A DNA stretch of 64,000 nucleotides from Robertkochia marina (GTDB taxonomy: Bacteria; Bacteroidota; Bacteroidia; Flavobacteriales; Flavobacteriaceae), in NCBI RefSeq assembly GCF_004799345.1, contig NZ_SSMC01000001.1:310001-374000 (forward strand), in the 5' to 3' direction. Each line of letters begins with the position of its first letter. Position 1 is the first letter of the stretch. Shown here piece by piece: positions 2,469-13,199 of the stretch. Both the position numbers and the translations under genes were made by a program. Under the pieces are notes generated by a model, which was not told the origin of the DNA, made no database searches, and saw nothing but the letters and a program-made list of their open reading frames with translations.

Positions 2469-4850
2469 TCAAAATCTGACATTCATCCCCACCAGGAAAT
2501 TGATCCCGGCCTGGGGGTAATATCCTGTACCGCTAAGGGTACTTACTGAACCATCAGGGTTATCAATATCAAAGGTGTAGAAATACCCGTTGGAGATGTA
2601 TTCTACATCAAAAATATTGTTCACCAGACCGCTAAAAACGATCTCTTTAAAGAATCCTGCAGAGCTTAGGGTATACTGAAGGTTAAGGTCATTAATGAAA
2701 TAATCATCCAGTTTTGAACTTTCTGCATCAATATTCCCCAGGTATTGTTCTGACACATATTTAGAAAGGAAATTAACCTGAAGTCCTTTTGCTGGATACC
2801 AGCCCAGCATATTTCCGGCGATCAGGTTTGGAGAGTATGCAATATTGGTATTGCCCAGATCCTGAAGCACTCCATCTCTCTCGAAAAAGTAATCCAGGTT
2901 GCGGTTATCACTGATCGCAAGGTTCGGACGCATGGCCCAATGGTCACCAAAATGCACTGTTGCATCCAGCTCCAATCCGAGTCGATAACTATCGCCAACA
3001 TTTCTTCTAAGGGGAGCACCTACATCATTAAGCTCTCCGGTAAGTACCAGCTGATCCTGATACCTCATATAATAAACATTGGAATTGAGTTCGAACTTAT
3101 CTGAACGGTATCGCCATCCGAGTTCGAAATCATTGAGCCGTTCCGGTTTCGGATTACCGCTTTCATAGTCGTTTCGATTAGGTTCCCGGTTGGCCCTGGC
3201 AAAGGAAGCATAGAGTTGATTGGCCTCATTCAGCCTGTAGGTAAGTCCGACCTTGGGGTTGAAGAAGTTAAAGGTATCATCAACCAATCCCGTCTCATTT
3301 CCATTAGCCTGATAGTTAACCGTTCGGTACTGCAGATCTCCGAAGACCCCGAACCCGTTATCAAAGCGGTAGTTTATCTTTCCATAAACGTTAAAATCTG
3401 TTTTCAGGGAGGTATCGTCATAATAGCGGTCTTTGTATTGGCTTTGAGAAGCAAACTGTGCCCAGATCACCTCTCCGAAATGGTCTCCTTCGTATTTATT
3501 CCAGGCACCACCGAGGATCACCCTAAGGCGATCTTTATTATATTGAAAAGAATAGGTAGCCCCGTAGAAGTCGTTGTCAAGCCATCTTCTTCTTATCAGG
3601 TCTGTGGTATTCACCGTCTCCCCGTTTACCTGCAGGGGGTCAAAACCATAGGTGGCAAAATCATCATCCTGGCGGTATTGCTCAAAAAATCCTCGTCCGT
3701 AGGTATAATGCAGGGCCAGGTTAGAACTAAAGTTGGGGCTCCACTGCTCACTCCAATGCAATTGGGCGTGATCCTGCTTGTAATTATCAACCTCATTATC
3801 ATAAAAATCAACGATCTCGCCCTGGTCATTATAAATAGCTCCGGCTATATTGAAGGTTCTGTTATTCTCAAGAATATCCGGGTCTTCGATCCCGTACCAT
3901 GCCTGGTAGGTTACCTCCTGTCCGCCGAAAAGCAGGGCTTTGACAAGGGTATTATCGTCAACATAGGCTCCTTGCAGAAAGTACGATTCCAGATCGGAAC
4001 TCGCCCGGTCTATATACCCGTCTGATTGTATACGTGAAAGACGCCCTGAAATTTCCACATGATCGTTCATCAGGCCTGTTCCAAAACGCAGGTTGGTACT
4101 CAAGGTATTAAAACTACCTCCGGTAGCCGATACCTCGGCATAGGCCTCTTCCTTAACGGCATCGGTAAGCAGGTTCAAACTGGCCCCAAAGGCTCCGGCA
4201 CCATTGGTTGAGGTACCTACACCCCGTTGCAGCTGCAAACTTTCTACCGACGAGGCAAAGTCGGGAAGATTCACCCAAAAGGTACCCTGTGATTCTGCAT
4301 CGTTATAGGGTATCCCGTTAATGGTCACGTTTACCCTGGTGGCATCGCTCCCCCTCACGCGGATCCCGGTATAACCTACCCCGGCCCCGGCATCAGAGGT
4401 GGTCACCACCCCTGGAAGATAATTCATTAAGATGGGGATGTCCTGTCCGAGGTTTCTCGGTGCAAATTCCTCTGCACTGAGATCAGAATAACTCACCGGA
4501 GATTCTGTATCTACACGTACGGCAGAAACCAGGACCTCATCGAGGAGCACATCTTTTTCATCCAGCTGTACATCTACCTTTGTGGTTTCGTTTACGGTAA
4601 TTGACCTGTAAAGAGGCTTTGGAGCAGAGTAATAAAACACCAGTTCATAATTTCCGTTGTCCAAAAACAACTCCCAGGCGCCCTCTGTATCGGTAGTGGT
4701 TCCCGAAGATGTATTTCTCACCTTTACTGTAACTCCGGGTACCGGCTCGCCCAGTTGATCCTTGAAGGTACCATAAACACGGTATTCCTGGGCATTTACT
4801 AAACTAAGGACTCCCAGAAAAAGCCCTAAAAAATAGAATATGATTTTCAT
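2469..4850 (-). CDS. TonB-dependent receptor, thiamine-type (riboswitch-controlled)
   Basis: An outer-membrane active transporter of 793 residues. Residues 1-20 are a signal peptide (cut near VNA/QEY). Residues 22-105 form a carboxypeptidase-regulatory-like beta-sandwich common in Bacteroidetes receptors. A plug domain follows (about 115-230, with VRVRGSDATRVNVTINGIP-like plug sequence), then a 22-strand-type barrel ending in the expected terminal Phe (GMNVRF). No SusD partner is adjacent, so it is not a SusCD system. A TPP riboswitch in the leader points to thiamine or a precursor as the substrate, as known for the OMR1 receptors of Bacteroidetes thiamine regulons. A 21-bp hairpin overlaps the start codon. 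Function is inferred from regulation, not from the barrel. Confidence 0.88.
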   Translation of the reverse strand: MKIIFYFLGLFLGVLSLVNAQEYRVYGTFKDQLGEPVPGVTVKVRNTSSGTTTDTEGAWELFLDNGNYELVFYYSAPKPLYRSITVNETTKVDVQLDEKDVLLDEVLVSAVRVDTESPVSYSDLSAEEFAPRNLGQDIPILMNYLPGVVTTSDAGAGVGYTGIRVRGSDATRVNVTINGIPYNDAESQGTFWVNLPDFASSVESLQLQRGVGTSTNGAGAFGASLNLLTDAVKEEAYAEVSATGGSFNTLSTNLRFGTGLMNDHVEISGRLSRIQSDGYIDRASSDLESYFLQGAYVDDNTLVKALLFGGQEVTYQAWYGIEDPDILENNRTFNIAGAIYNDQGEIVDFYDNEVDNYKQDHAQLHWSEQWSPNFSSNLALHYTYGRGFFEQYRQDDDFATYGFDPLQVNGETVNTTDLIRRRWLDNDFYGATYSFQYNKDRLRVILGGAWNKYEGDHFGEVIWAQFASQSQYKDRYYDDTSLKTDFNVYGKINYRFDNGFGVFGDLQYRTVNYQANGNETGLVDDTFNFFNPKVGLTYRLNEANQLYASFARANREPNRNDYESGNPKPERLNDFELGWRYRSDKFELNSNVYYMRYQDQLVLTGELNDVGAPLRRNVGDSYRLGLELDATVHFGDHWAMRPNLAISDNRNLDYFFERDGVLQDLGNTNIAYSPNLIAGNMLGWYPAKGLQVNFLSKYVSEQYLGNIDAESSKLDDYFINDLNLQYTLSSAGFFKEIVFSGLVNNIFDVEYISNGYFYTFDIDNPDGSVSTLSGTGYYPQAGINFLVGMNVRF

Positions 4851-4869: not shown

Positions 4870-4944
4870 AAAAAGGGGTCATTATTCTTACTATTAATAT
4901 TTAAAATTGATTTTCAAAAGATCAAATTCCGGCCGCGAATCTTC

Positions 4945-5050
4945 ACTTTGATTCCCTAAACAGCATTACCTGTTCCAGGTTCTATGGGTATGATCTCAGC
5001 CTTTAGGCCTCCGATACTCTTCGGAAACTTTCGAGGCACCCCTTTTGAGA
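4945..5050 (-). promoter_or_regulatory. TPP riboswitch (THI element)
   Basis: On the minus strand the sequence shows the conserved aptamer blocks in order: GGGGTGCC (about 5043-5036), GGCTGAGATCATACCC, GAACCTG, and GGTAATGC, followed by GGGAATC. These are the pyrimidine- and diphosphate-sensing parts of the TPP aptamer. It sits about 100 nt upstream of the TonB receptor start and should lower expression when thiamine pyrophosphate is abundant. Exact P1 boundaries are uncertain. Confidence 0.93.
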
Positions 5051-5128
5051 CAACGCAAAATTAAGAACTAAAACACAATTGGAAAGACAATTTTCACAAA
5101 ATATAACATCACGCGCTAATACTCTGAT

Positions 5129-5140: not shown

Positions 5141-7582
5141 ATGGCCAGGCTTAAAAGAGATATTACCGCAAAAGTACTGATCAGCTACCTGATATTGCTG
5201 ATACTGACCGTTTCTGTGGGGTGGATCATCTATTCAGAGATCAACTCTTTCAGCAGGGCCCAGGAGGGTAATAATACAGAGAACAATATTGTATTTCGAA
5301 TAGGCGGACTTCTTACCCTGATGTATGAGAGTGAAAGTTATGCCCGCTCAGCCATTCAATCTAATAAAGAAGAACCATACATTTCGTACCTAAAGAAAAA
5401 TGATTCCATTAATATTGGTATTGATTCCTTAAAAGCTTCCACCTTAAATGAGATCCAACGTTCCTTGCTGGATAGTGTGAAATTACTTTTGGAGCAAAAA
5501 GTAACCAACATAGCTGAACTGAGGCAGATCAGGAATGATAAGGCATCAGACATTGCTCTTGACCGTGCCATCCAGAAATTTTCCAATATTGAACAAACCC
5601 TCGGACGACTCTCTCTCGAAGACTTTGTGCCGAACCCGGCAAACCTTGATCCGGAGAAGCGCAATCTTCTTTTAGAGCAGATCAATATCTATAACGAATA
5701 TATCCCAAGGGATTCCTCCAACACCGTAGATGAAAAGGTGCTCGATTCTATGGTCATTGCCTCCAGGGGTCTGTTAGAAAAGATCAGGCAGGAAACTGCC
5801 CGCAGGCGTTTATCGGCTGCAGTTAAAGAAAATGCTTTGCTACAGAATGATCTGACCACATCTCAACAGCTGCGGCAGATACTTTCTACCCTGGAAACAG
5901 AGTTGCTTGAAAATATCCGTAATGCAAACGCACAGCGACAGGCTGTTCTCAACCGAAGTATCAGGGTTTTAACCTGGGCGGCCATAATCGGCATACTCCT
6001 GGTTATCCTGTTCTCTTTGATCATCCTCAATGATTTCTTTAAGAATCAACAATACCGCGAACGACTGGAGAAGGCCAATCAAACTACCCAGTCTTTACTC
6101 AAAGGACGGGAACAACTTATTTCTATGGTGAGTCATGACCTGCGGACCCCCTTGAATACCATTCAGGGCTATACCGAACTCATGACTGAAAACACGAAAT
6201 CTCCCAGGGAAGCCTATTACGCCGGTAAAATAAAAACCGCCTCTTCCTACGTCACCAAATTGGTTGATGACCTGTTGGATTACACCAAATTGGAAGCCGA
6301 CAAGGTTACCATAGAGCCGGTTCCTTTTGATCTTGGCAGGGTGATCGAGGAGACTGCGGAAGGTATAAAAGCCATTTACAAGGAAAAGCCCATTACCCTC
6401 AACTACAAGATTAACGAAACCTTACCCGGGCAACTGATCAGTGATCCATTCAGGGTCAAACAAATACTGAGTAACCTGCTGGGCAATGCCTATAAGTTTA
6501 CCGATCAGGGAAGTATCAGTATTGAAACCAGTTATGACGAAAAGAACAACAGGGTAACCATTTCGGTGACTGATACCGGAATGGGGATTCCCAAGGAAAA
6601 GCAACCATTGATCTTTCAGGAATTTACCCAGGCAGAAGATTCACATGAAAAGAGATTCGGAGGCAGCGGATTAGGATTATTCATCTCCTGGAAGCTAGCT
6701 CAATTACTGGACGGTCAACTCACCCTGGATTCTGAAAAAGGAAAAGGCAGCCGCTTCACTCTCTGCTTACCGGCAAGATTCGGCAACCTTACAGCCAAAA
6801 TGGGTGATCGCGCTGATTCTGCAAAGGTTCTCACCAACAAAAATGTTCTCATTATTGATGATGATACCTTACTGCTGCAAATGCTGGAAGACTGGTTGGT
6901 TTCTAAAAAGGCCGGTGTACATCGGTTTACCTCAGCCAGCTTGGCATTGAACAAGATCGCCGAGCTGGATTACGACCTGATTATCACTGACATTCAATTG
7001 CCGGGTATGAACGGGTTCAGGTTTCTTGAATTACTGAGGTCAGGACAGGAATACGGGTATAAGGATCAACCGGTGATCGCAGTGTCAGGCCGAAAAGATC
7101 TGGATCCGGATAAATATCTCTCGAACGGCTTTTCTGCCTTTCTTCTGAAACCCTACACCCCCTCACACTTGCTGAAAGTGATCGCGGGCATCTATTCAGG
7201 GAAGCAGCCTCAGGTATTAAAAAAACCTAAAAGAGAAAAGAAAGAATTGCACAATGCCTTATACCGTCTCGATGACCTCCAAACCTTTCTTGATCATGAT
7301 ATGGAAGCCATCAGGGAGTTGTTGGACAACCTTTTGCAAACAACCGAAAATGACCTGGAAAAATTAGACAGAATGCTGGAAGAAGAAGATTATGAAGGTA
7401 TCGCTGATCTTGCTCACCGAATGAAGACCATGTTCCGGCAGATCCATGCCACACCTATTGTAGCGATCTTAGAACAAGCCGAGCTGCAGACGGCCTCAGA
7501 TCCTGAAAGCATGGGTGTCTTATTAAAAGGGCTTAGGACTGCATACCTGGAACTAAAGGCAGGAATTTTGAAACAGCACTAA
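5141..7582 (+). CDS. Hybrid sensor histidine kinase with REC and Hpt domains
   Basis: An 813-residue membrane kinase. Two transmembrane helices (about 12-31 and 275-296) frame a mostly helical, coiled-coil-rich periplasmic sensor. Next come HisKA with phospho-acceptor His332 in MVSHDLRTPLN, an HATPase domain with DTGMGIP and GGSGLGL boxes, a receiver domain with phospho-acceptor Asp617 (IITDIQLPG), and a C-terminal Hpt domain with His759 (LAHRMKTMF). It is thus a full internal phosphorelay. The likely output partner is the NtrC-type regulator encoded convergently, with which it overlaps at the stop codons. The start cannot lie further downstream without losing TM1. Signal unknown. Confidence 0.93.
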   Translation: MARLKRDITAKVLISYLILLILTVSVGWIIYSEINSFSRAQEGNNTENNIVFRIGGLLTLMYESESYARSAIQSNKEEPYISYLKKNDSINIGIDSLKASTLNEIQRSLLDSVKLLLEQKVTNIAELRQIRNDKASDIALDRAIQKFSNIEQTLGRLSLEDFVPNPANLDPEKRNLLLEQINIYNEYIPRDSSNTVDEKVLDSMVIASRGLLEKIRQETARRRLSAAVKENALLQNDLTTSQQLRQILSTLETELLENIRNANAQRQAVLNRSIRVLTWAAIIGILLVILFSLIILNDFFKNQQYRERLEKANQTTQSLLKGREQLISMVSHDLRTPLNTIQGYTELMTENTKSPREAYYAGKIKTASSYVTKLVDDLLDYTKLEADKVTIEPVPFDLGRVIEETAEGIKAIYKEKPITLNYKINETLPGQLISDPFRVKQILSNLLGNAYKFTDQGSISIETSYDEKNNRVTISVTDTGMGIPKEKQPLIFQEFTQAEDSHEKRFGGSGLGLFISWKLAQLLDGQLTLDSEKGKGSRFTLCLPARFGNLTAKMGDRADSAKVLTNKNVLIIDDDTLLLQMLEDWLVSKKAGVHRFTSASLALNKIAELDYDLIITDIQLPGMNGFRFLELLRSGQEYGYKDQPVIAVSGRKDLDPDKYLSNGFSAFLLKPYTPSHLLKVIAGIYSGKQPQVLKKPKREKKELHNALYRLDDLQTFLDHDMEAIRELLDNLLQTTENDLEKLDRMLEEEDYEGIADLAHRMKTMFRQIHATPIVAILEQAELQTASDPESMGVLLKGLRTAYLELKAGILKQH

Positions 7583-8943
7583 GAATCTATATCGTATTCC
7601 TTGATCTTGTTGTAGAGCGTTTTTCGGGTGATCTGAAGCATCTTTGCGGCTCTGGTCTTATTGTTATCAGCCTCTTTCAGCGCATTGAGAATAAGGGAGC
7701 GTTCATGGTCTTTTGTCGAAAAGGAAGCAGACCTGGCGGGTTGATGGTCGGCAAGGGCCATTTGTATGAACTCTTGTGGAAGGTCCTTTTTACCAATGAT
7801 GCCATTTCTGCATAGCAAGACCGCTCTTTTGACAATATTAAAAAGTTCTCTGAGGTTTCCAGGCCAATGGTATTCCTGAAAGATCCTGATCACCTCATCA
7901 GAGAAGCCAACCACTGATTTCTCTAATTGAGCATTGGAGTGTTGAAGGAAGTGATCTGCAAAGATCATCATATCTTCTTTTCGCTCCATTAGAGAAGGCA
8001 CCCTGACGGAGAACTCATTAAGGCGGTGAAAAAGGTCTTCTCTGAACCGGCCGTCTTTTACAGCCTCCTGAAGATCTTCATTGGTGGCCGAGATCACCCG
8101 GATATCCACCTCAAGTTCCTTACTGCTACCTATGGGCTTCACCCTTCGTTCCTGAAGGGCCCTCAGTAGTTGTACCTGCACCTCATAGGGCAGATTACCC
8201 ACCTCATCTAAAAACAGGGTACCCCCATTAGCTTCTTCAAAATGACCTTTTTTATCCTGGACGGCACCGGTAAACGATCCTTTTAAATGCCCGAAGAATT
8301 CGCTTCCCGCAATTTCTCTCGGAATGGCTCCGCAATCTACCGGTACAAAGGGCTTATTTCTTCGTTTACTTAGATTGTGAATACGCTGCGCCACCACCTC
8401 CTTCCCGGTACCACTTTCCCCGGTGATCAGCACCGACATATCTGTAGGAGCTACCAGAGAAACATATTCATTAAGCTTTTCTGATGCCTGGCTTATCCCT
8501 CTTACCTTTTCACCCGCGTCTTCCAAAATTGCTGCAGCCGGAGTATTAGACTGTTTGTTTGGCACTTCAGGCACGGTATCGGGCACTTTTTTAAGGGCAT
8601 TGCCAAGAACTTCCAGGACTTCTTCCTTATTGAAGGGTTTCGAGATGTAATCAAAAGCTCCTTTCTTCATGGCCTCAACAGCCGAGGCCACCTGGGCATA
8701 ACCGGTCATTAAAATGACCGGGAGGTGCGGATGATGATCCTTTATACGACTCAGAATATGAATACCGTCTTCATCCGGCAGTCTGAGATCAGTAAATACC
8801 AGGTCGTAAGACTCTGAGGTAAGGTGTTCAAACGCCGCCTCAGCATTCGTACATGCATCTACTGCATAACCGTGTCTTTCCAGGAATTGTTTAAACATCC
8901 TGGAGAAATTGATATCATCTTCAATAAGCAGCAGTCTTTGCAT
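7579..8943 (-). CDS. NtrC-family sigma-54-dependent response regulator
   Basis: A 454-residue activator of sigma-54 RNA polymerase. Residues 1-120 are a receiver domain with Asp52 (LVFTDLRLP). The AAA+ domain has Walker A GESGTGKE (175-182) and the sigma-54 contact loop GSFTGA (222-227; the usual form is GAFTGA, and the second position is Ser here). The C-terminus is a Fis-type helix-turn-helix (NNKTRAAKMLQITRKTLYNKI). I choose the ATG ending at 8943 because the receiver fold begins at MQRLLLIEDD; an upstream frame extension lacks family character. It is convergent with the hybrid kinase, with stops overlapping at 7579-7582, and rpoN lies at 53.6 kb. Confidence 0.94.
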   Translation of the reverse strand: MQRLLLIEDDINFSRMFKQFLERHGYAVDACTNAEAAFEHLTSESYDLVFTDLRLPDEDGIHILSRIKDHHPHLPVILMTGYAQVASAVEAMKKGAFDYISKPFNKEEVLEVLGNALKKVPDTVPEVPNKQSNTPAAAILEDAGEKVRGISQASEKLNEYVSLVAPTDMSVLITGESGTGKEVVAQRIHNLSKRRNKPFVPVDCGAIPREIAGSEFFGHLKGSFTGAVQDKKGHFEEANGGTLFLDEVGNLPYEVQVQLLRALQERRVKPIGSSKELEVDIRVISATNEDLQEAVKDGRFREDLFHRLNEFSVRVPSLMERKEDMMIFADHFLQHSNAQLEKSVVGFSDEVIRIFQEYHWPGNLRELFNIVKRAVLLCRNGIIGKKDLPQEFIQMALADHQPARSASFSTKDHERSLILNALKEADNNKTRAAKMLQITRKTLYNKIKEYDIDS

Positions 8944-9002
8944 ATATGATGGCTTGCCTCTATAAAAATATACATGTAAATATCTGTTATTTAAGTGATT
9001 AC

Positions 9003-9036
9003 ACAAAAAAAAGGATGGGCAAACCCATCCTTTTTC
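9003..9036 (-). terminator. Terminator of the PepSY-like gene
   Basis: Stem AAGGATGGG/CCCATCCTT with a 4-nt loop, flanked by A and T tracts, between the PepSY-like gene and the NtrC-type regulator. Confidence 0.85.
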
Positions 9037-9070
9037 TAAATCAAACTAACTAACTTACTATATGCAGACT

Positions 9071-9379
9071 TTACATTTGGATCCACTCTCCATTTTCATT
9101 TGCATAGAGGGTGGCTGTTTCTTCACCCATGGTAACTTCCAGCTTGTACTCATTAGCCTCGTTTACATAGGCTTTTGAGATCTCAGCTCCCGGATAGTCA
9201 TTGGCAAGTGCATCTTTTACTGCCTGAGGTACCTCATCGTGGGCAATCTCAGTAAATTCTTCCTGTACTACTTCCATATAGATATCTTCAGAGATACCAT
9301 CGTGGAAAATTACGGGAGTTGCCGCGAATGAAGTAAAACTTCCTAAAGCTAAAGCTGAAACTAATACTAGGTTTTTCAT
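9071..9379 (-). CDS. Small secreted PepSY-like protein
   Basis: A 102-residue exported protein. Residues 1-19 are a signal peptide (cut near SFA/ATP). The rest resembles one PepSY-like alpha/beta unit: VPQAVKDALANDYPGAEISKAYV, then a strand pair EYKLEVTMGEETATLYANENGEW. Such small periplasmic proteins are common in Flavobacteriia and are often transcribed next to two-component systems, but their role is not established. It precedes the NtrC-type gene on the same strand, separated by a terminator. No enzymatic residues are evident. Confidence 0.75.
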   Translation of the reverse strand: MKNLVLVSALALGSFTSFAATPVIFHDGISEDIYMEVVQEEFTEIAHDEVPQAVKDALANDYPGAEISKAYVNEANEYKLEVTMGEETATLYANENGEWIQM

Positions 9380-9464: not shown

Positions 9465-9500
9465 AAAACCCTTGTAAAGGCCTTATTTTACAAGGGTTTT
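9465..9500 (-). terminator. Terminator of the DUF4301 operon
   Basis: 14-bp perfect stem AAAACCCTTGTAAA/TTTACAAGGGTTTT with an 8-nt loop; a T tract follows on the minus strand. It lies about 100 bp past the DUF4301 stop. Confidence 0.85.
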
Positions 9501-9556
9501 AGAAATTTTGTCAAAAAATGTGATCTAAAGGATCACTGTGTAATTTGCGGGAACAG

Positions 9557-9600: not shown

Positions 9601-11163
9601 CTAGAGTGCCCTTACCTGATGCGGTTGTTTTAAAAGGTCAACCACGGTCTTGGCAGGATTAAAAGTAATGAGAGGCACCTCTACAAATATGGTGTTCCAA
9701 TGGGCCATGGCCCCATTCCATAGTCCTGGTAGCTCGAGGGCTTTCAGATCCTTCCCCTCTTTGGTCTTATTGGTTATAAAGGCCTGGTTGTGGTCAATGT
9801 ATTTCAAGAGGTCATATTTCTCTCCCTTATAATTTCGGATACTGCAAACAATATCAACCGGGTTAAAATGAGTAGACTCTTTAAAGATCTTTTGCTGGAA
9901 TTTACTTTTATCATCTATCTGTGCCGATTCTATGATCTGCAGAGAGATATTCCCATTTTCGTCCTTTGTCCAGAATGGTCCTCCTCCGGGTTCACCCTCA
10001 TTCTGTACCATACCACAGACGCGAATAGGAGCATCGAGCTTCTCTTTTAAAAACTCTATCTGGTAGATCTCCTTGTATTTATTTACATCTGGTTTTATGC
10101 GAACGTTGAGCTTTTCAGACAGAAATGTTTTGATCTCTTCAATAGTGGCTTCATCCGGAACCGTTTCATCCAGCAATTTAGAATAGGCGTACACCTGTTC
10201 TCTGAGCTCCAAAAGTTTACCGGCAAGCATTTTCTTGAAGTCGGCCATTTCGTGTTTAAACTTGTAAACCACTACATTGTCAATGTTCTTTATAAAGATC
10301 AGATCGGCATCTTGTTCATTGAGGTTTTCGATCAGGGCACCATGCCCTCCGGGCCGAAATAAAAGATCGCCGTTCTGTAATCTGAAGGGGTCGTCATCGG
10401 GGGTTACCGCAATGGTATCCGTAGAGGTCTTCTGGAAGGAGAACGAGATCTCAAAACTCACCCCGGTTTTTTCTTCCACGCTTTTCCTGATGTCTTTGAA
10501 TTCTTTTTCAAACTTCTTCAGGTGTTCCTCTGAAATGGTAAAATGCAGTCTTGCCTTACCCTTCGCACTACTGTACAGGGCAGCCTCGTACAGGTGCTCT
10601 TCAAAGGCGGTGGAAGCCCTGGTCTTATAGCGATGAAAAGGGAGTAATCCTTTAGGAAAGGAACCAAAATCGAACCCATCTTCAGAAAGCAGTAATTTGA
10701 CAAATAAATGCTTTTGATGGTCATAAGACAACTTCACATAATCGGGATAGCGCTTTTCCATTTCCTCCATCAATTCGTGGTAAAAAGGAAACTTCTCTAC
10801 TCCCACAAAAAAAGTACGAATGATCTGAGCATTGGTCCTGTTCACATAGGCATTTACGGTTTCCGATTCCGGGTTGTAATCATTCAGAAACTCAAACAGG
10901 GCCTTAAACATTCTCGTTGCAGCTCCGGAAGCGGGAACAAATTTTAAAAGATCCAACTGATCTCTTTCCTTTTCATACCGGTTTATATAATGTTCCTTGC
11001 GATCTGCGGTAACCAATTCAATACCATGATCAATGGTGGCGGCAGCTACAAGATTCACAAAAGGGATGCCCCTTTTAAAAACCTCGATTTGCTCTTTGAT
11101 CTTTTCAGGTTTTATTCCCCGGCTTGTTATTTGTCGCAGGTCGGCTTCCAGTAAGTTGATCAT
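9601..11163 (-). CDS. DUF4301 protein, nucleotidyltransferase-like
   Basis: A 520-residue cytoplasmic protein of the DUF4301 family, with no established function. I see motifs in the order of UDP-sugar/sugar-1-phosphate nucleotidyltransferases: a glycine-rich loop FVPASGAATRMF (75-86), PKGLLPFH (170-177), RPGGHGALIENL (270-281) and FIKNIDNVV (290-298). In the UDPGP enzymes the matching segments bind the nucleotide base, the phosphates and the metal. A GT-A-like nucleotidyltransferase is therefore a reasonable inference, though not proof of activity. Its start lies inside the 3' end of the NadR-like kinase gene (59-bp overlap), so the two products are probably made together. Last gene of the operon. 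Confidence 0.82.
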   Translation of the reverse strand: MINLLEADLRQITSRGIKPEKIKEQIEVFKRGIPFVNLVAAATIDHGIELVTADRKEHYINRYEKERDQLDLLKFVPASGAATRMFKALFEFLNDYNPESETVNAYVNRTNAQIIRTFFVGVEKFPFYHELMEEMEKRYPDYVKLSYDHQKHLFVKLLLSEDGFDFGSFPKGLLPFHRYKTRASTAFEEHLYEAALYSSAKGKARLHFTISEEHLKKFEKEFKDIRKSVEEKTGVSFEISFSFQKTSTDTIAVTPDDDPFRLQNGDLLFRPGGHGALIENLNEQDADLIFIKNIDNVVVYKFKHEMADFKKMLAGKLLELREQVYAYSKLLDETVPDEATIEEIKTFLSEKLNVRIKPDVNKYKEIYQIEFLKEKLDAPIRVCGMVQNEGEPGGGPFWTKDENGNISLQIIESAQIDDKSKFQQKIFKESTHFNPVDIVCSIRNYKGEKYDLLKYIDHNQAFITNKTKEGKDLKALELPGLWNGAMAHWNTIFVEVPLITFNPAKTVVDLLKQPHQVRAL

Positions 11164-11722
11164 GTTCTATTAGTTTATCGATTAGGTTGATAGCTTCATT
11201 AAATCGTTCATCTTCTGCACCCGCAAGCGTTACAAAGGGTTTCTTGTATTTCTTAAGCGCCTGCTTAAAAAGATGAAACATCTCTTCCCGCTGCTCCGGA
11301 CGATCCCGAAGGTCATCCGCTACCCAGGGGGTATCGATGTAGGTTAACAAATATAAATGGTATTTATTTTCTACAGCATATTTTTCGAGCAAAGGGTCTA
11401 CATACCCATCGTAATAAGCCTCAGAGTAGACCTTGGTAACTAAAAGATTGGTATCGAGAATCAGAACTTTATTGGCTGTTTCGGCCAAGGTGTTCTCTAA
11501 TTGCATTTGCCCCCTGGCGATGGGCAAAATGTCTTCCGGCTGACAAACCTCTTGTTCCCGGTTCCATTTTTCCTGGAGATATTCTCTGGCATATTCAGGA
11601 ACCCATTCCGTGCTGTAATGGGCCGCCAATTTTCTGGCCAGCGTTGTCTTTCCGGTCGATTCCGGTCCGTACAATACTACCTTAACAAGGTCTCCGGGCT
11701 TTTGTTCAAGTTTTGTCTCCAT
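11105..11722 (-). CDS. NadR-like nucleoside kinase (AAA ATPase)
   Basis: A 205-residue P-loop kinase resembling the ribosylnicotinamide kinase domain of NadR, without the NMN adenylyltransferase or DNA-binding parts. Visible motifs are Walker A GPESTGKTT (19-27), EYAREY, and an LDTNLL segment that matches the acidic Walker B/catalytic position. It probably phosphorylates the vitamin or nucleoside brought in by the adjacent PnuC-family permease: nicotinamide riboside in the classical case, or thiamine if the permease is PnuT-like. It overlaps the permease gene by 46 bp and DUF4301 by 59 bp. Confidence 0.82.
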   Translation of the reverse strand: METKLEQKPGDLVKVVLYGPESTGKTTLARKLAAHYSTEWVPEYAREYLQEKWNREQEVCQPEDILPIARGQMQLENTLAETANKVLILDTNLLVTKVYSEAYYDGYVDPLLEKYAVENKYHLYLLTYIDTPWVADDLRDRPEQREEMFHLFKQALKKYKKPFVTLAGAEDERFNEAINLIDKLIEHDQLTGSRPATNNKPGNKT

Positions 11723-12315
11723 GCTAAGTATCCATATACCGCTATGATGGTAAATATAAAATATTGAATGCTGGTTAGTGTTAATCCTTTGTAAAGATAC
11801 AGGGGCACAGAGATCAGGTCACCAATGATCCAATAGATCCAGTTTTCCAGTTTTTTCCTGGCCATTAACCACATGCCGACAAAAAACACAGCTGTAGTTA
11901 CCACATCTACATAAGAGACCCACCCATCCCATTTATCGAACAATTCATAAACCAGGCTCACCAGTCCCATGGTTGCCACAAACAGGAAGACCGACCATAA
12001 CTGTTCTTTGGGAGAGGTTACCGTTACAGGAGTAAAATGATCAGGATCTACTTTCCTTGTCCACACATACCAGCCATAGATGCTCATGACAAAGTAATAC
12101 CCGTTTATCAGCATATCCCCCAGCAGTCCCCAATACCATAAAATATAGACGAATATGGCCGTCGAGATGATCCCTGTTGGGTATACCAAAATGTTCTCTC
12201 TTTTGGAATATATCACGCTGAGAAATCCGAAAATGACGGCAATGGCCTCCAGCACAACCAGGTGAACAGGAACTTCGAGGTAGGGCTCAAAGAGCAAATT
12301 AAAAATGTGGTTCAT
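11677..12315 (-). CDS. pnuC: PnuC-family vitamin permease (possibly thiamine-type PnuT)
   Basis: An inner-membrane permease of 212 residues with about seven hydrophobic helices and the family signature region YPTGIISTAIFVYILW ... YGWYVWTRK. PnuC proteins carry nicotinamide riboside by facilitated diffusion, trapped by phosphorylation; the PnuT branch carries thiamine. The gene upstream (17-bp overlap) encodes a thiamine-binding protein and the gene downstream a small kinase, and a TPP-riboswitch receptor lies about 7 kb away. The thiamine reading is therefore plausible, but substrate residues cannot be settled by eye. Confidence 0.88.
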   Translation of the reverse strand: MNHIFNLLFEPYLEVPVHLVVLEAIAVIFGFLSVIYSKRENILVYPTGIISTAIFVYILWYWGLLGDMLINGYYFVMSIYGWYVWTRKVDPDHFTPVTVTSPKEQLWSVFLFVATMGLVSLVYELFDKWDGWVSYVDVVTTAVFFVGMWLMARKKLENWIYWIIGDLISVPLYLYKGLTLTSIQYFIFTIIAVYGYLAWRQNLNKSPETLLR

Positions 12316-12559
12316 AGGTACTGCGGTCCGATTTCACGATCTTCATATACAGAAGCCCCCTTTCTGTCATTTCAAAAGCTTCTTTAATTTCCCGGTTGAG
12401 AACGCTCATAACCTCGTCATAGTTTCCATAAACCTGTGTACTCAATGGATTTTCCATAACGGTGAGCCCTGATTCCCGCAATTTTTTGATCAGGTTAATG
12501 ATAGCAGGCTCATAATCGTCCTGTATAGGCGTCAGGGTTAATTCAACAGAGATCTTCAT
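12299..12559 (-). CDS. Thiamine-binding protein, MTH1187/YkoF-like
   Basis: An 86-residue protein of the MTH1187/YkoF ferredoxin-like family. It shows the typical opening MKISVELTLTPI, then an amphipathic helix and a strand reading GLTVMENPLSTQVYGNYDEV. Members bind thiamine or its pyrimidine part and are found beside thiamine transporters. It has no signal peptide, so it acts in the cytoplasm. It overlaps the PnuC-family gene by 17 bp and starts 16 bp after the phosphopantetheinyl transferase. Family call fairly sure; ligand inferred. Confidence 0.75.
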   Translation of the reverse strand: MKISVELTLTPIQDDYEPAIINLIKKLRESGLTVMENPLSTQVYGNYDEVMSVLNREIKEAFEMTERGLLYMKIVKSDRSTYEPHF

Positions 12560-12575
12560 ATGTTAACTACGTTTT

Positions 12576-13199
12576 TTATTTGTCCTCCAGGGCCCAGGCA
12601 GCTGTAAAGCCGTCGAATTCCATAAATTCAAGACGGTATTTTTCTGAACGGGAACGATATTTCACCCAGGCTTTTGCCTTTCCTTGTTTCAAGGCAAACG
12701 GAATTACACGGGTATGGTCTTTAAAGCTCAATCCTTCGGTGGCAAAAAGCTTGTACAGGCTTTCTTTTATACACCATACTACGGTGAGGTCTCTTACCTG
12801 TGTTTTATCGAGAAAGGCATATTCATAATCAACAAACTTATCGGCAATACGCCCAATCTTTTCTCGTTGTTTTTCTATATCAATACCTACAGGTTCATCG
12901 CTGACAATAATGCCGGAGAAAATAAAAGAATGGGTGATCGATATATGACGGCCGTCGGTGAGATGGGGTCTGCCCAGGTCGTTATAATACAACTGACGGG
13001 CATCATAGCCGGCCGCCTTAAGCAGATGACGTACACTGAGGAACCCACGTTGATGGATCTCTGACTTCATGTGCGAGAGACGCTCTCTGCAATTGGAGGT
13101 CAGCACGACATCTTTTTCAAGAGTTTCCACCTCCTCTTCTATCTTCCAAATCAGGACCTTAGTGTGCTCGTTTACTGTTATTGTTTTATAAAGAGGCAT
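12576..13199 (-). CDS. 4'-phosphopantetheinyl transferase superfamily protein
   Basis: Transfers the 4'-phosphopantetheine arm of coenzyme A to a serine of carrier proteins. The 207-residue length and motifs fit the Sfp/AcpT type: GIDIE (105-109) supplies the Mg ligand Asp, and WCIKE (142-146) is the WxxKE box. It is the first gene of a minus-strand run continuing into the thiamine-binding/PnuC/kinase/DUF4301 genes, only 16 bp before the next start. Its target (fatty-acid ACP or a secondary carrier protein) is not shown by the context. Divergent from ahcY. Confidence 0.9.
   Translation of the reverse strand: MPLYKTITVNEHTKVLIWKIEEEVETLEKDVVLTSNCRERLSHMKSEIHQRGFLSVRHLLKAAGYDARQLYYNDLGRPHLTDGRHISITHSFIFSGIIVSDEPVGIDIEKQREKIGRIADKFVDYEYAFLDKTQVRDLTVVWCIKESLYKLFATEGLSFKDHTRVIPFALKQGKAKAWVKYRSRSEKYRLEFMEFDGFTAAWALEDK

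Follow-up and report, generated by a model that had tools for sequence, protein, structure and literature searches.

Together, our analyses suggest that DUF4301, an uncharacterized protein family of Bacteroidota, belongs in the Flavobacteriaceae to a locus for thiamine uptake and activation, in which it may act as a nucleotidyltransferase on a thiamine phosphate. We put the probability of this explanation as a whole at roughly 55%. The gene that led to it lies in a window of 64,000 nucleotides from Robertkochia marina (contig NZ_SSMC01000001.1, positions 310,001 to 374,000), within which coordinates are given. It occupies 9601-11163 on the reverse strand, encodes 520 amino acids and matches Pfam family PF14134 with 724.5 bits against a gathering score of 27, covering model positions 2-507 of 507.

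UDPGP-type enzymes join a nucleoside triphosphate (NTP) to a phosphorylated acceptor and release pyrophosphate (PPi). The initial annotation had recognized four motifs in DUF4301 in the order of UDP-sugar pyrophosphorylases, and all four are present in the open reading frame (ORF): PASGAATRM (residues 77-85), PKGLLPFH (170-177), RPGGHGALIENL (270-281) and KNIDNVV (292-298). We assessed their conservation in an alignment of 60 DUF4301 sequences, the window's included, with 32-60% identity to the window protein. P77, A78, S79, G80, R84, M85, P170, K171, F176 and H177 of the first two motifs are invariant in 60/60 sequences, as are R270, P271, G273, H274, G275, L277, N280, K292, N293, D295 and N296 of the last two, and likewise K505. 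Because 21 listed motif residues are invariant among 60 sequences, the motif match goes beyond chance, and since this holds for most motif residues, DUF4301 looks catalytically intact as judged from the alignment. The expected conservation among relatives thus held for most residues but not for T83 and G272, which are among the positions that vary. G80 and R84 of the nucleotide loop, G273-G275 of PGxHG, the metal-site Asp D295 and the C-terminal Lys K505 presumably have the catalytic roles of their counterparts in UDPGP enzymes.

An AlphaFold (AF2) model of the protein, built on a 22-sequence alignment, had a mean predicted local distance difference test score (pLDDT) of 89.9 and a predicted template modeling score (pTM) of 0.89. 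Searched with Foldseek against the PDB, it gave a best match with an E-value of 3.4e-11 and TM scores of 0.49/0.55 over nearly its whole length. There were 56 matches at E ≤0.001, and the top 50 were exclusively chains of UDP-GlcNAc (UAP) or UDP-glucose (UGP) pyrophosphorylases, with 10-16% sequence identity between DUF4301 and the best matches. The model therefore bears out the fold that had been proposed, and we regard a UDPGP-like GT-A nucleotidyltransferase fold as close to certain for this predicted structure. At the sequence level the window protein scored 15.6 bits (E 0.0066) against Pfam UDPGP (PF01704), not reaching the family cut-off of 22; 30/60 aligned members matched UDPGP at E ≤0.1 (best E 5.7e-5), and no Pfam family other than DUF4301 itself and UDPGP matched more than 2/60. 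When a DUF4301 profile was searched against PDB sequences, UDP-glucose pyrophosphorylases (UGPases) ranked first at E 0.34-0.49, which alone is not significant. In the weak alignment to yeast UGPase 2i5k, PGGHGAL stands opposite PPGHGDL, KNIDN opposite SNGDN and FNPVKTVNDLL opposite FLPVKTCSDLL. The two families thus share a predicted fold and an identical succession of PGxHG, xDN and FxPVKTxxDLL motifs, whereas DUF4301 differs in its nucleotide loop PASGAATRM, located ~85 residues before the PK motif, and in its family-specific GEPGGGP and ELPGLWNG motifs. DUF4301 is related to UDPGP in fold, yet is no member of PF01704. This places an uncharacterized family in a known enzyme fold by model and profile matches. 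PF01704 itself was above cut-off in one of the 32 genomes searched (G387) and was not found in the window genome.

Upstream of DUF4301, also on the reverse strand, are genes for a NadR-kinase-domain homologue (11105-11722; AAA_28, E 2e-42), a PnuC-family permease (11677-12315; PF04973 (NMN_transporter), E 1e-53) and a thiamine-binding protein of the MTH1187/YkoF type (12299-12559; PF01910 (Thiamine_BP), E 4.5e-8). The overlaps of 59, 46 and 17 bp reported earlier for these four genes were confirmed from the ORF coordinates. We propose the first protein as a thiamine kinase, converting thiamine to thiamine monophosphate (TMP), and the second as the thiamine importer PnuT. The transcription unit is probably headed by a 4'-phosphopantetheinyl transferase (PPT) gene (12576-13199; PF01648, E 7e-9), which precedes the thiamine-binding gene by 16 bp in conserved order on the same strand, and next to it comes a divergent S-adenosylhomocysteine hydrolase (SAHH) gene. 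Farther downstream, still on the reverse strand, a thiamine pyrophosphate (TPP) riboswitch, or THI element, is found at 4936-5053 (69.8 bits, E 5e-23 with our model R1), followed by a TonB-dependent receptor (2469-4850; PF00593, E 1e-24; Plug, E 3e-10) that we propose as an outer-membrane thiamine receptor. The earlier view of the gene set as a vitamin uptake operon is supported by this context of riboswitch, receptor and PnuC.

The riboswitch assignment extends to relatives of the locus. The THI core was spotted by a look at motifs upstream of the receptor in Flavobacteriaceae loci and in the window, where it is intact, and R1 was then built from ten examples. With this model a TPP element was found in 71/80 fetched loci and in 25/28 sampled loci of the same family, the latter hits being partly by construction, as five model-building sequences (L051, L053, L058, L067 and L083) are among the 28. 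Rfam model RF00059 gave 40.2 bits (E 2e-6) for the window copy, below its gathering score of 54.3; at gathering scores neither the window nor the first 17 neighborhoods gave an Rfam match to a TPP element, the window copy being below cut-off and the others presumably likewise. Rfam's curated cut-offs did yield a TPP riboswitch ahead of the TonB receptor gene in L083, a Flavobacteriaceae kinase operon without DUF4301, as well as the TPP elements of L101-L103 (family f11), which are TPP-receptor-PnuC operons ending in thiamine pyrophosphokinase (TPK). No second TPP element was found in the whole R. marina genome at E 0.01. In many relatives DUF4301, or a small ArfB-like gene, is followed at a short distance by a receptor homologue. 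We also observed kinase-PnuC pairs without an adjoining DUF4301 in other families (L071-L079, L085-L088), mostly without a TPP element or TonB-receptor relative nearby; in family f9 (L076, L097) a gene for an aldose epimerase is found downstream, with a TPP element close by.

The kinase resembles NadR over one domain only. NadR model TIGR01526 matched it over its kinase half (positions 164-324 of 325) with 121.7 bits versus a cut-off of 341, the closest relatives of known structure are NadR chains (E 8.5e-23), and a Walker A motif is present in 66/66 kinase homologues of the fetched loci. A single-sequence structure model had a pLDDT of 37.5 and was used for no fold search; a kinase tree gave no clean separation of NadR kinases from stand-alone kinases and does not count as evidence here. 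In the window genome we found ThiL and NadD, and no match to ThiC or to TPK. The genome is without the usual enzyme for thiamine phosphorylation and, since it lacks ThiC, thiamine or its parts must be salvaged.

We sought the same pattern in 395 Bacteroidota genomes, 41 of them Flavobacteriaceae (G-, L- and f-numbers denote genomes, loci and families). The kinase occurs in 90/395 genomes, and PnuC in 90/90 of these. Outside Flavobacterium, TPK was found in 1/71 kinase genomes; genomes there with PnuC carried the kinase only (70), TPK only (54), both (1) or neither (11). Of these last 11, four contain a NadR-like protein with matches in both domains, and the other seven belong to family f30 (G085, G239, G242, G293, G325, G332 and G360). 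The 18 Flavobacteriaceae outside Flavobacterium have the kinase in 18/18, TPK in 0/18 and no ThiC in 15, while among the 23 Flavobacterium genomes TPK is present in 23/23 and the kinase also in 19, being absent from 4. A later set comprised 16 further genomes behind the fetched loci, for which completeness figures are lacking: TPK was present in 7/7 kinase-less genomes with PnuC beside DUF4301 (six Flavobacterium and one Flavobacteriia metagenome-assembled genome) and in 0/6 kinase genomes, and three Aquimarina had neither. The exchange of kinase for TPK occurs between families and also within family f4 and within Flavobacteriaceae.

Such exclusion of TPK, together with the presence of ThiL, makes it quite probable that the kinase is a thiamine kinase, the simplest reading being that it turns thiamine into TMP and that ThiL then turns TMP into TPP. 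ThiL scored above cut-off in each of the 41 Flavobacteriaceae; of 79 genomes tested, all those with the kinase scored above it too, and the five with ThiL under cut-off all have TPK. Alternatively, the kinase could make TPP directly as a pyrophosphokinase, with DUF4301 as a non-catalytic accessory or regulatory subunit. The way in which the kinase stands in for TPK across families would fit, as would the fusion of DUF4301 to the kinase in many Flavobacterium genomes. The ThiL pattern argues against this alternative, however, and so do the many DUF4301 residues invariant in 60 sequences, unlike those of a dead subunit, and the persistence of DUF4301 without the kinase; we consider it improbable. 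Assigning thiamine kinase activity would give a candidate enzyme for Bacteroidota with PnuC and the kinase but without TPK (70/395 genomes) and close a gap in reconstructions of vitamin B1 metabolism. Titles and abstract openings in the literature searched, a scope outside which most subscription journals fall, state no thiamine role for a NadR-like kinase, and DUF4301 is mentioned in a single paper within that scope.

Both nicotinamide riboside phosphate and thiamine phosphate had been named in the initial annotation as possible substrates. Because of the TPP riboswitch, the kinase/TPK exclusion and the lack of ThiC, we favor thiamine over nicotinamide riboside, and hold it very likely to be the vitamin of this locus. 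Were the riboside salvaged here, PnuC would import it, the kinase would make nicotinamide mononucleotide (NMN) and DUF4301 would be a non-homologous NMN adenylyltransferase. This would suit the homology of the kinase to the NadR kinase half and the riboside for which PnuC is named, and a fusion of kinase and adenylyltransferase would mirror NadR, but it fits neither the riboswitch context nor the exclusion with TPK. Furthermore, NadD is present in 17/17 genomes tested, and G182, G202 and G339 have, besides the operon, a second PnuC adjoining a protein that aligns with the NadR model along its full length (the curated cut-off of this model was reached in 0/395 genomes, including those with full-length matches). 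In a PnuC tree, made by a quick method with a midpoint root, the operon PnuC sits with PnuT proteins linked to TPK and to TPP riboswitches, on the other side from NadR-linked PnuC (SH-aLRT 94). In G182 and in G202 the two PnuC proteins are split between the sides of this tree, that of the operon lying with TPK-linked PnuT. Salvage of nicotinamide riboside is accordingly a very improbable role for the locus.

DUF4301 was found in 66/395 Bacteroidota genomes and in 36/41 Flavobacteriaceae. In this family the gene order is largely conserved, with thiamine-binding protein abbreviated as TBP: SAHH, PPT-(PcrB)-(TBP)-PnuC-kinase-DUF4301-(ArfB)-TonB receptor, with inserts in some genomes. The kinase lies directly upstream of DUF4301 in 32/36 Flavobacteriaceae genomes, 21 of which have the two fused in one open frame; the remaining DUF4301 genomes, without such a kinase, are G084, G154, G289 and G335. 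Among 80 fetched loci the kinase was adjacent in 47, fused in 19 and absent from 14; these 14 break down into seven that have PnuC beside DUF4301, three from Aquimarina, three with a lone gene and one on a cut contig. In a tree of 60 DUF4301 homologues, fusions appear in three parts (Flavobacterium; Croceivirga with G304; G198), for which the simplest reading is that fusion arose repeatedly, fission being the alternative. The kinase linkage previously anticipated across Bacteroidetes therefore stood within Flavobacteriaceae but not in the loci of other families that we examined. Within Flavobacteriaceae, these data tie DUF4301 to one vitamin. G335, which has TPK, carries at positions 7504-9366 of L055 a DUF4301 with an N-terminal stretch of ~110 residues replacing the kinase and containing no recognizable kinase domain.

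Several observations weigh against a thiamine-linked DUF4301. The sequence similarity between DUF4301 and UDPGP is weak, with a best PDB E of 0.34. No kinase or PnuC was found near DUF4301 in 16 loci of other families (L031-L045 and L050, one on a short contig), which represent 16 of the 30 DUF4301 genomes outside Flavobacteriaceae, and 25 lone-gene DUF4301 loci, some at the same place, contained no convincing TPP element. Five Flavobacteriaceae, three of them without ThiC, have the kinase and PnuC but no DUF4301, and conversely seven kinase-less loci retain DUF4301 beside PnuC. Three Aquimarina (L129, L130 and L131) keep DUF4301 beside the PPT gene in loci without PnuC, kinase, thiamine-binding gene or TPP element, and their genomes gave no TPK match and no kinase match better than E 1e-4. 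For the kinase, 19 Flavobacterium genomes carry it together with TPK, several genomes have weaker NadR-kinase-like paralogues (E 4e-9 or worse) that were left uncounted, and the kinase/TPK split mostly follows families, so that the 395 genomes are not independent observations and Fisher p-values are not independent evidence. Kinase-PnuC pairs outside Flavobacteriaceae are mostly without a nearby TPP element, and 8/12 kinase-linked PnuC proteins of other families fall on the NadR-linked side of the tree, making their cargo less sure. As a separate matter, we discounted a TPP-like match of 17.8 bits near the lone DUF4301 of L045 (identical with L068), because it runs into the start of a radical SAM/HemN-type ORF and because Rfam reports no TPP match at that site.

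Some of these observations would be expected if DUF4301 were a sugar-1-phosphate nucleotidyltransferase, that is, a UDP- or other NDP-sugar pyrophosphorylase merely co-transcribed with thiamine genes. Its nearest folds are the UDP-GlcNAc and UDP-glucose pyrophosphorylases, out-of-family DUF4301 is without kinase, PnuC and TPP element nearby in the loci examined, some kinase genomes are without DUF4301, and Aquimarina keep it without the salvage genes. Yet the kinase fusions in three parts of the tree and the adjacency in 32/36 genomes are hard to explain without a shared function, and no recurrent sugar-nucleotide gene was noticed beside DUF4301, most out-of-family neighbors having been clustered, without annotation. 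We therefore regard a sugar-phosphate substrate as unlikely, though a serious competitor to thiamine phosphate.

Returning to the thiamine locus, what was computed here comprises the fold, the conserved residues, the riboswitch, the order of the genes, the fusions and the exclusion between kinase and TPK. From these we infer the roles in transport, the activity of the kinase on thiamine and, for DUF4301, the entire reaction with its substrate. In the mechanism we propose, thiamine would cross the outer membrane by way of the TonB receptor, which is under TPP-riboswitch control, and the inner membrane by way of PnuC (PnuT), perhaps with assistance from the thiamine-binding protein. Phosphorylation by the NadR-type kinase, in place of TPK, would trap it as TMP, and ThiL, encoded elsewhere in the genome, would make TPP. 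DUF4301, coupled to the kinase by overlap or fusion, would convert TMP and NTP to NDP-thiamine and PPi, off the direct route to TPP. The acceptor would be TMP because the kinase, its fusion partner, would make TMP. We rejected DUF4301 as a requirement for TPP synthesis on account of the kinase genomes without it; it seems unneeded for TPP in view of the five Flavobacteriaceae, three of them lacking ThiC, that have kinase and PnuC but no DUF4301. That it is kept without the kinase and, in Aquimarina, without the salvage genes places it as thiamine-tied in one family and off the main route. Nucleotidyl transfer to the vitamin is plausible, while thiamine phosphate as the substrate is a tentative assignment, to which we give somewhat less than even odds.

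The locus can be compared with several known systems. In the Bacteroides OMthi-pnuT-tnr3 thiamine operon a TPP riboswitch is combined with a TonB receptor, PnuC and TPK (Tnr3) (PMC5613172). L101-L103 of family f11 show the same order, whereas in the window genome, where TPK was not found, a NadR-type kinase takes its place and DUF4301 is added. The fold and the transport scheme are thus known, and what is new is their combination, together with a reaction for which we found no assigned enzyme. A vitamin kinase joined to a nucleotidyltransferase is known from RibF. The kinase-DUF4301 pair has this arrangement in common with NadR, and its kinase domain is homologous to that of NadR (PMC7221760). 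It differs from NadR in its other transferase fold, the absence of an NMNAT domain, the thiamine context and the order of kinase then transferase. The parallel with NadR as kinase plus adenylyltransferase is attractive as an analogy.

Extending this parallel, one may speculate that the pair is the thiamine counterpart of NadR and RibF, in which the kinase would make TMP and the UDPGP-fold enzyme would adenylate or otherwise nucleotidylate it, yielding a thiamine dinucleotide, for example adenosine thiamine diphosphate (AThDP). On this view DUF4301 would be the first gene assigned to making an adenylated thiamine, and lone copies in other Bacteroidota, paired divergently with RelA/SpoT in Bacteroidales, would catalyze this transfer to TMP or TPP as part of a starvation signal; we consider this proposal as a whole rather unlikely. 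AThDP has been detected in E. coli and mammalian liver, its synthesis being undemonstrated in vitro, and the E. coli thiamine diphosphate (ThDP) adenylyl transferase is described as a complex that loses its activity on purification, with no gene named for it in the part of PMC8615392 used here. AThDP and adenosine thiamine triphosphate (AThTP) are AMP-bearing thiamine phosphates (PMC8615392), the product expected if a DUF4301-type reaction joined TMP or TPP to ATP; from TMP this would be AThDP. If DUF4301 does nucleotidylate thiamine phosphate, it would provide a gene for adenylated thiamines.

Lone DUF4301 genes are divergently paired with RelA/SpoT in L031, L032, L033, L190 and L191, which cover three genomes of families f11 and f12 as well as Bacteroides finegoldii and Parabacteroides distasonis. 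Phage and plasmid searches returned three fecal phage records and four Bacteroidales records.

Within the window, a terminator-like hairpin of 14 pairs, identified by consensus scan only, follows DUF4301 at 9465-9500 on the reverse strand and possibly marks the end of the transcription unit; the scan gave 12 terminator-like sites in total versus 8.4 expected. The interval from DUF4301 to a PepSY gene (9465-9536) contains two hairpins and an 11-of-12 sigma-70-like site, with scan totals about those of shuffled sequence. The PepSY-like gene, together with genes for a histidine kinase and a sigma-54 response regulator (5141-9379), separates the DUF4301 operon from the riboswitch-receptor unit. 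Aequorivita locus L157 has an insert like this one between operon and receptor, and several PepSY copies are found in L059 and L061. Finally, copies of the Flavo-1 RNA (RF01705) occur near the conserved region in L049, L051-L054 and L062.

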